From positions 1 to 39,265 of the IMG/VR virus record IMGVR_UViG_3300005602_000005: 39,265 nt of DNA. The stretch is one strand, 5' to 3'. Under the pieces are notes generated by a model, which searched no databases, was not told the DNA's origin, and saw only the letters and a list, made by a program, of their open reading frames with translations. A program made the position numbers and the translations under genes. Within the stretch, counting starts at the first letter, position 1. The number at the start of each line of letters is the position of its first letter. The stretch comes from a virus. Of the stretch, positions 15,593-33,014 are shown piece by piece.

Positions 15593-16925
15593 TTATAGTG
15601 CTACTGCAAGAGTGCAGCGTAGGTTTACAATCCAAGAAGTATTCGTGATATTGAATACTTGTGCCATTTTCCAACCTGCTGTTTGATAAAGTCTCAAACG
15701 AGGGGAAGCAATCTCTGGCGGCGCATAGATAAACTGTGCTGAATATCCATCCAAATCCACCATGTCATAACTTTCTTGCCCTGGAAGGAAGATGTTATAG
15801 ACATCTTGTCCCAAAGCAGAAGCTAATGCACTGATCGAACCTACTGAAGAAAGCAAGAAACGAATGTTTCTAACTGTTCCCCATTCAGATTGAAGAAGAT
15901 TCGCAGTATTGGAATATTGCGAAACGTTCTGGAAACCCACCATTTGGTCTAGGTCTGCGCTCAAATTAGTATGAGTCAAACCAAAGAAGCAGGTTCTGAC
16001 TGGTGCTGTACCAAAACGCAGCTCACCTTCAATCAAATCCATGATGAACTGTGCATTAGCAGTACGCAAGAGCCGTACAGCCTTTGAGCAATCCAATGGA
16101 GTGATATTGGTCGGGTTGTCTCCATTTGTTCCAGAAGTACAATTTATGGGGGGAGCACCGCCCTCCATCATGCTACGAGCCAGTTGGTCTTCTGTTTCAC
16201 GAAGAGATTGGCCTAATGTGCTCACAGCACTATTGAGGACAGGATCTTCGTTAATGAGCATACAATTTGTTACTCTACACAATTGTGTAGGGACATATCA
16301 TTTCTGTATGTCTCTGCAATTTTATATATATTTGCAGATCGGACTATCGCTTCACCTTTCGGTGCCTACCCGCTTTAGTCTCTCACGGTGCTTTCGCTTC
16401 CGCCTTGTCACCTTTTTCTTCAATAAACGCAAAATAATTCAATAAAACATCGATCATTTGAGTCAAAATTTCAGGGGGTAGTATCGAAGAAGGATACTTT
16501 TCTCTAATCATTTTATATATTGTTTTTGCATCTTTTACATTCATAAAGGTTTCCAAGTCAATTAGGGCTGGTTTATAGCAGGCTAAGTTAATCAAAACCT
16601 GCTCTTGCAGTATTATGTAAGTACCATCATTTACTTACGCTACAAGACGATTGGCATGGTCAAACCAATCTATTCTAGCATCAATATCCAGAGCAGTTAA
16701 TTGCTGAGCTGGAGGATCTACGATACCGTTTCCGAGCGGTACAGGTGCAGTCAATAGATTTTGATATCTACGACGCCTTAGGATGTCCCCTGCTTGCTGA
16801 TCCATAGTAATAGGATAACCCATTGTAGTATGAATCAAGTCTGGCATAGGACGTGCAAGTAGCTTCATCGAAAGCTGTTGTTGAACAGCAGGAGGAAGAA
16901 TACTTGTAGTTGTTGGGCCTGACAT
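15593..16925 (-). CDS. Major capsid protein, N4-gp56 family, split by a group I intron
   Basis: Exon 1 is 16925-16642 and exon 2 is 16274-15593. Joined they give 966 nt, or 321 residues. Exon 1 carries the family's start (LLARPMPDLIH ... ILRRRRYQNL ... ALDIDARIDWF). Exon 2 carries its continuation: LINEDPVLNSAVSTLG, NIEG-like DLIEGELRFGTAPVR, SEWGTVRNIRFLLSS, YSAQFIYAPPEI, and the closing GWKMAQVFNITNTSWIVNLRCT. Unspliced, exon 1 stops at TAA (16635) just inside the intron. Splicing restores ...NRLV/VTNCMLINED across the junction. It builds the icosahedral shell and follows the scaffold gene, as usual. Family recognition is confident; exact splice points come from the intron fold. Confidence 0.88.
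16275..16641 (-). ncRNA. Group I self-splicing intron in the major capsid gene
   Basis: The intron is 367 nt. P1 pairs exon UCUUGU (16647-16642, ending in the required U) with guide GCAAGA (16608-16603), giving the U.G pair at the 5' site. P10 pairs UACU (16612-16609) with exon-2 AGUA (16274-16271). P2 is GCAGG/CCUGC (16602-16578). P3 is GCCC/GGGU. P4 is CUUG/CAAG, P5 is ACCUUU/AAAGGU and P6 is CGG/CCG. P7 is GACUA (16380-16376) with UAGUC (16346-16342). P8 is CACC-GAAA-GGUG. Further hairpins at 16338-16313, 16312-16292 and 16290-16275 form the P9 region. The last base is G (16275), as required. Splicing restores the capsid frame. The subgroup was not assigned. Confidence 0.9.
16383..16544 (-). 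CDS. Small reading frame inside intron loop L5
   Basis: This 53-codon frame starts with the ATG immediately after the 5' strand of P5. It runs through the loop (16544-16416) and into the P5-P4-P6 core, stopping just before P7. The predicted peptide (MNVKDAKTIYKMIREKYPSS...) is helical and charged, with no LAGLIDADG, GIY-YIG or HNH motif. An in-frame TTG would extend it to 16595. It may be a remnant of an intron-encoded protein, a small real gene, or chance. Confidence 0.35.
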   Translation of the reverse strand: MNVKDAKTIYKMIREKYPSSILPPEILTQMIDVLLNYFAFIEEKGDKAEAKAP

Positions 16926-32691: not shown

Positions 32692-32713
32692 AATGTAAAA
32701 TAGCTTTACATTT
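32692..32713. promoter_or_regulatory. 22-nt dyad motif, copy 3, in a divergent spacer
   Basis: AATGTAAA-ATAGC-TTTACATT has perfect 8-bp arms and differs from the other two copies mainly by one spacer base. It lies between divergent genes at 32630 and 32760, where an operator would control both. Confidence 0.6.
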
Positions 32714-32759
32714 GAGTATTCAAAATATGACTTGATAGATTTAACCGAAAGGATTTTCC

Positions 32760-33014
32760 GTGGAAAATAATCAGACAGAGCAAAAAAACATAATACAATG
32801 GCAGCCACTCATTGAAATGATCGTTGTATTAGTGACAATATTAGGATCAACCATTCCCTTGTATATACACACAGATTCAAAAATAGACGCAATGCATGAA
32901 ACCATTAAAGCCATAAATATGGAAATAAAAGATTTTCATACTAGACTTGCATTGCAAGATCAGGAATTCAAAATGCGCTTAAGCAATATCGAGGAAAGGA
33001 ATAAGACTAAATGA
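32760..33014 (+). CDS. Small membrane protein with coiled coil, holin-like layout
   Basis: This 84-residue protein has a hydrophobic helix at ~18-36 (IEMIVVLVTILGSTIPLYI), then a charged coiled coil (KAINMEIKDFHTRLALQDQE). The start is GTG with AAAGG about 8 bases upstream. Its stop overlaps the next ATG. It is the first gene of a seven- to nine-gene plus-strand operon and belongs with the 2606 and 7310 genes by design. Confidence 0.6.
   Translation: MENNQTEQKNIIQWQPLIEMIVVLVTILGSTIPLYIHTDSKIDAMHETIKAINMEIKDFHTRLALQDQEFKMRLSNIEERNKTK

Follow-up and report, generated by a model that had tools for sequence, protein, structure and literature searches.

Group I introns in capsid genes of phages are already known (PMC3706429, PMC7886860), and for the capsid intron of LittleE and the minor tail intron of BAKA, both mycobacteriophages, splicing has been proven by reverse-transcription polymerase chain reaction (PMC3706429). 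The present analysis concerns the major capsid gene of an uncultured phage, represented by the IMG/VR virus record IMGVR_UViG_3300005602_000005, whose 39,265 bases are referred to as the window; here two introns appear to flank a microexon of 31 nucleotides (nt) and to share a single group I core, and the unspliced message carries a short in-frame extension of the upstream exon, the read-through tail, that may act as a degradation tag. LittleE and BAKA resemble the window in having a group I-type intron in a virion gene, with U before it and G at its end, and in a read-through of the unspliced message that ends in two alanines and a stop (...NSVATAAA-stop in LittleE and ...SDDLAAAAA-stop in BAKA); they differ in that each site holds one intron and no coreless partner is described (PMC3706429). 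The LittleE intron also carries a bottom-strand endonuclease open reading frame (ORF), like the opposite-strand ORFs in relatives of the window, and the report on these two phages makes no mention of ssrA or of unspliced products (PMC3706429).

Other systems share single features with this locus. In crAss-like phages several introns lie in one capsid gene, which is for example divided into five pieces, while the available part of that report describes neither a unit of microexon and shared core nor a tail (PMC7886860). In the Bastillevirinae, exon skipping in SIOphi is counted as a likeness; the introns there lie mostly in DNA-metabolism genes, and neither core sharing nor a tail is described in the portion of the source that was available (PMC11878797). 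An engineered group I spliceozyme is similar in that one ribozyme acts at two splice sites to remove a coreless intron from between exons, although it is designed and acts in trans (PMC4094466), as opposed to the window arrangement, which would be natural and in cis. Tagging by transfer-messenger RNA (tmRNA) likewise places an LAA- or LVA-type C-terminal tail on an incomplete protein, and tails of the form ANDxxFALVA in some relatives resemble the tmRNA tag; in the window, by contrast, the tag would be encoded by the intron and added by ordinary translation up to a stop codon, with no tmRNA. A literature search covering few subscription journals found no report of intron-encoded degradation tags, nor of a coreless intron served by the core of its neighbour.

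The capsid gene is divided between two ORFs on the minus strand, 16635-16925 and 15593-16282, which align with adjoining stretches of a single major head protein family, phrog_1357. This agrees with an earlier note on the window, which had proposed that the capsid is coded in two frames as parts of one protein, that the unspliced frame ends shortly inside the interruption (it does so at TAA, 16637-16635), and that a group I intron, drawn from 16641 to 16275, lies between the two; the presence of such an intron is upheld by P3, P7 and P10 pairing and by a purpose-built covariance model, described below. A sequence search for relatives of the second ORF returned 80 loci, and in 13 intronless relatives the protein runs DARIDW-YG(T/S)Y(I/L)(I/V)LQEQV-MLINED. 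The window bases for YGTYIILQEQV (16627-16597) fall within the intron as first drawn, and therefore there are two insertions, 31 nt apart: one of 36 nt at site 1 (16663-16628) and one of 334 nt at site 2 (16596-16263). The revised splice gives a product of 320 amino acids, with a mean alignment score against the intronless relatives of 1537, compared with 1468 for the product first read. Because the two insertions had been read as one, the earlier extent, splice sites, P1 and P10 helices and product were mistaken. The former boundaries enclose real exon sequence kept in all intronless relatives, and the former junction NRLV/VTNC joins the read-through of intron 1 (FDHANRLV) to the 3' end of intron 2 (VTNC), neither of which is capsid. 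The former P1, CUUGUAG/CUGCAAG, is a real and conserved hairpin that pairs intron 1 with the microexon and is not P1, and the P10 pairings lie at the two new sites instead. The earlier observation is confirmed in part, and its interpretation is supported in part. Among the relatives (individual loci carry L-numbers), site 1 of L059 is occupied by a full intron of 689 nt and its site 2 is empty, and divergent capsid genes carry the intron at site 2 without one at site 1, so that both are independent group I sites. Small introns called by splice-aware alignment in the region of codons 87-100 were found to be spurious when the DNA was read, and blastn searches of isolate phages with the capsid gene and with one intron gave no match. 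The revised map of the window is as follows, with IGS denoting an internal guide sequence and P1a, P10a and P1b, P10b the P1 and P10 helices of introns 1 and 2.

16664-16925, minus strand: exon 1 of the major capsid gene, start codon to ...GAUUGGU (phrog_1357 ORF match; boundary from intronless relatives and P1a)
16628-16663, minus strand: intron 1, 36 nt, coreless, ending in G (absent in intronless relatives; site recurs in 32 loci)
16635-16664, minus strand: in-frame read-through tail FDHANRLVA-stop, with an ssrA-like end (stop TAA 16637-16635)
16649-16655, minus strand: IGS1, GCCAAUC (forms P1a with exon end GAUUGGU, 16670-16664, with U.G at the splice site)
16656-16660, minus strand: P10a strand ACCAU (partner of AUGGU, 16627-16623, at the start of the microexon, with which it covaries from locus to locus)
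16632-16647, minus strand: 5' arms of hairpin H1 (pair with microexon 16623-16617 and 16610-16603; covariation and minimum free energy fold)
16597-16627, minus strand: microexon, 31 nt, coding for YGTYIILQEQ and two bases of the V codon (residues shared by all intronless relatives)
16263-16596, minus strand: intron 2, 334 nt, group I, with the only credible catalytic core of the window
16577-16583, minus strand: IGS2, GCCUGCU (forms P1b with AGCAGGU, 16603-16597)
16338-16576, minus strand: group I core including P4-P6 (covariance model R1; P3/P7)
16571-16565/16371-16365, 16380-16376/16346-16342 and 16364-16361/16356-16353, minus strand: core helices P3, P7 and P8, respectively
16383-16544, minus strand: small ORF of 53 amino acids (MNVKDAKTIYK...) in the P5 region of intron 2
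15593-16262, minus strand: exon 3 of the major capsid gene (phrog_1357 ORF match; boundary from intronless relatives and P10b)

The same two-intron unit is present in 32 loci, the window included, from at least two capsid lineages, and has a constant layout in which a site-1 insert of 32-79 nt is followed by a microexon of 26 or 31 nt and then by the site-2 intron. The 5' exon ends in U in 32/32, and the site-1 insert ends in G in 30/32 as scored by script; for the other two, L213 and L233, the script took the microexon to be 29 nt long, and at 26 nt, the length in sister loci, both also end in G, according to a reading of the printed sequences by eye. In the window, the exon-end U stands opposite G in P1 at both sites, and the introns terminate in AATG (intron 1) and AATTG (intron 2). 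Across loci P1a varies with the exon (GAUUGGU/GCCAAUC, UUUCGGU/GCCGAAA, CUUCGGU/GCCGAAG, CUACGGU/GCCGUAG), and P10a varies with the microexon (ACCAU/AUGGU, ACCGU/ACGGU, UCCGU/ACGGA, CCAGU/ACUGG, CCUGU/ACAGG, CCCGU/ACGGG), 60/70 being paired over 14 distinct P10a combinations and only 1/20000 shuffles doing as well. The remainder of the insert pairs with the microexon. P1a, P10a and the microexon hairpin are thereby kept while their sequences differ: in 21 aligned loci 97.9% of cells are paired, two-sided change is seen in 30 cells and nine pairs, and 0/500 shuffles do as well on these measures. The window segment folds into exactly three predicted hairpins, P1a, H1 and P1b (z -4.35), and 3' splice site 1 falls in the loop of H1. 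No short site-1 insert without a downstream intron was found among the loci examined. L260-L262, picked up by the insert motif, are unrelated, and the pattern GATTGGTN{4,34}TGCCAATC was dropped as too loose, its matches being mostly chance.

Membership of intron 2 in group I is supported by covariance model R1, which was built from ten relatives with the window left out and which matches 16576-16338 at 92.5 bits (E 2.8e-21); a second match, 32695-32776, was taken as chance (13.5 bits, E 0.07). A group I core carrying the P7 of the earlier note, GACUA/UAGUC, is found between the two ORFs, and across the family P7 also takes the forms GACUG/CAGUC and GACUU/AAGUC, where it is the variation and not the pairing itself that counts as evidence, complementary strands being what the script sought. 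For P3, whose 5' strand was fixed by context, a mean of 6.24 of 7 positions is paired compared with 4.63 in shuffles, and for P10 over all capsid sites the figures are 3.44 of 4 and 2.0. As predicted helices, P10, P3 and P7 covary across relatives. A P3/P7 pseudoknot core with P4-P6 and P8 was found for intron 2 only, and intron 1 is coreless.

From the boundaries, the P1, P10, P3 and P7 pairings, the single core, the recurrence of the unit and the frame-specific tails, all shown by sequence comparison, we infer splicing itself, the service of both introns by one core in cis, and a tail that works as a degron. In this mechanism, two guides would lie upstream of the core, IGS1, in intron 1, pairing with the end of exon 1 and IGS2, in intron 2, with that of the microexon. 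The core of intron 2 would first excise the 36-nt coreless intron 1, using a 3' site in the loop of the microexon hairpin, and intron 2 would then be excised in ordinary group I fashion. If splicing is in cis, intron 1 must leave first, because excising intron 2 first would free the core and strand intron 1. Given that no short insert in the loci examined lacks a downstream intron and that there is one credible core, the downstream core is expected to splice both. As a whole, the explanation by a two-intron group I unit, with one core serving both introns and a read-through tail as putative degron, is considered probable, while the wider reading, in which the single core of one lineage would carry out two successive cis splicings around the microexon, of the coreless intron and then of itself, is favoured by a small measure. 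Such a unit of two guides and one core would be the first natural counterpart known to us of the engineered group I spliceozymes, and would mean that viral genes which look broken in annotation can conceal short coreless introns. The alternative that survives best keeps the revised boundaries and has intron 1 excised in trans, by intron 2 once freed or by a different group I RNA; engineered group I ribozymes perform this reaction (PMC4094466), and intron 1 is itself coreless, but a site-2 intron accompanies the short insert in every locus examined that has it, and the hairpin chain P1a-H1-P1b runs straight into the core, so that excision in trans is thought unlikely.

In-frame translation of the window through the unspliced 5' site yields DW-FDHANRLVA-stop, and the site-1 inserts end in AA-stop or VA-stop in 32/32 loci, with tails in relatives including LLAA-stop, ALAA-stop and ANDQSFALVA-stop. 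Further capsid intron sites in relatives lie after residues 36, 106, 118, 134, 146, 183 and 216, and over the capsid sites at which long fragments would form, leaving out site 36 and site-2 introns behind a site-1 insert, 77/86 tails end in (A/V)A-stop, compared with 0/172 when those introns are read in their two other frames and with a background of about 4% of long ORFs in these loci. The last two residues are written in 16 codon pairs, and the residue before them is mostly leucine, giving mostly LAA. Two internal controls agree. The fragment from site 36 would have only 36 residues, and there the tail is found in 0/24, the frame mostly stopping immediately or a few codons later; where site 2 follows a site 1 that is already tagged, it is found in 1/32. 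In L204, L227 and L235, a tail of RLVA, RQVA or RLAA with its stop lies in another frame of the microexon, so that the exon is coded in two frames. C-termini of the ssrA type that end in LAA are recognised by ClpX, and those in LVA serve as degradation tags. The window tail ends in LVA at a free C-terminus, a close variant of LAA as in an ssrA-like degron. The upstream body of a tmRNA-type tag is not in the window tail and is present only in the ANDxxFALVA tails of L263, L281, L354, L359 and L376, and the window feature is therefore described as an ssrA-like end and not as an ssrA tag.

Tails also occur beyond this capsid family. A scan with a core motif silent on tail and gene found 61 introns whose exon frame was clear, and 31/61 end in (A/V)A-stop compared with 2/120 wrong-frame tails. 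By gene, tails were seen in 6/6 tape measure introns (ALAA, ASAA), 6/7 in the phrog_283 capsid, a majority in phrog_1357-like capsids, 1/1 in an anaerobic reductase and 0/4 in ribonucleotide reductase-like clusters. The ANDxxFALVA tails named above read ANDQSFALVA, ANDSSFALVA or ANDEKFALVA, and a betaproteobacterial tmRNA (L382:50-422), the sole match of a genome-contig scan for ANDxxFALVA ends, encodes the tag ANDERFALVA. The T4 td, nrdB and nrdD introns have no such tail, ending FLG-stop, SFA-stop and ELT-stop, nor does the 55-residue capsid fragment of Tuc2009, which ends AWS-stop. A subgroup of capsid introns (L273, L304, L313, L328, L353) ends in VAFS-stop, VAIS-stop, YGVS-stop or YGIS-stop in place of AA-stop, possibly reflecting another host tag.

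Because bacteria couple translation to transcription, an abundant structural gene that carries an intron should fill the cell with truncated product. On the unspliced message a ribosome would read a few codons into intron 1 and then stop, releasing a capsid fragment ending ...NRLVA, whose ssrA-like C-terminus would send it to ClpXP-type proteolysis. An in-frame stop in group I introns has been read, in a review, as ribosome stalling that allows the RNA to fold (PMC3984707); the tails suggest, from their sequences, a further role beyond stalling, in which the fragment is marked for ClpXP-type degradation. Such tagging would be most important for proteins that are abundant and able to assemble, capsid and tape measure among them. 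The tails suggest how phages tolerate such introns, in that the intron brings its own protein quality-control tag, and the persistence of introns in capsid genes, an old puzzle, is now directly testable with cultured mycobacteriophages. The tails could instead be a side effect of RNA structure or of signals for termination, with no part in protein degradation, as in some of the window clade the LAA codons share bases with the arm of H1 whose partner is the LQ codons of the microexon; this is judged improbable, given that the same peptide end arises at differing intron positions, from 16 codon pairs and in the exon frame only, that site 36 and sites behind an upstream tail do not have it, and that some tails resemble a whole tmRNA tag. 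It is very improbable that intron 1 stays unspliced and is bypassed by ribosomes as in T4 gene 60, a reading that a short insert with hairpins and stop codons might recall, since the insert bears group I signals (5' U, 3' G, U.G in P1a and a covarying P10a), the same site holds a full group I intron in L059, and the frame needs both inserts removed. Scarcely any credence is left to the single 367-nt group I intron 16641-16275, with FDHANRLVVTNC replacing YGTYIILQEQV in the capsid, which restores the frame with U on its 5' side, G on its 3' side and a stable hairpin across the proposed 5' site, but which removes residues kept in all intronless relatives at a lower alignment score, is not a general splice because the exon frame ends before that site in five sister loci (L003, L014, L050, L052, L063), and leaves P1b and both P10 pairings unaccounted for.

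Several points weigh against a two-intron unit with one shared core and a degron tail. P1a and P1b are invariant within the window clade, P1a varying only between clades, and therefore this invariance neither supports nor opposes the pairing there; in the window, P3 contains a single mismatch. Rfam models, RF00028 included, in gathering and permissive modes gave no group I match in the window or its relatives, which by the refutation test of the earlier note would count against a group I intron but is not taken as refutation, because the family as a whole escapes the Rfam model. The window tail is LVA rather than LAA, 7/17 site-2-only introns have no tail, and introns of the phrog_9953 capsid are tailed in 0/7. 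The loci come from metagenomic contigs, and related sequences among them inflate the counts.

Some further observations concern the introns of relatives. In the seven phrog_9953 introns (L267, L270, L280, L300, L334, L372, L374) a final H stands at the stop with no tag, though the fragment is long. The capsid gene of close relatives (L044, L045, L050, L052, L059, L061, L062, L068) is interrupted at nine or more positions, and several contigs have three or four introns per capsid gene, with none in other close relatives. No LAGLIDADG homing endonuclease was found in the window intron, which has only the 53-residue ORF; many of the larger introns of relatives hold GLIDGEG-type ORFs, one fragment giving Pfam LAGLIDADG_1 at E 2e-4, just below the cut-off. 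LAGLIDADG-like ORFs on the strand opposite the capsid occur in many introns, among them those of L046, L047, L048 and L052 at site 134, L003 at site 2, L037 at site 106 and L068 at site 146. Introns of 330-450 nt, too small to hold an endonuclease (L044, L045, L050, L057, L070 and others, and the window at 16383-16544) carry varied ORFs of about 50-100 amino acids, several of them cysteine-rich, which start after a GGGGCAAG motif of the core.
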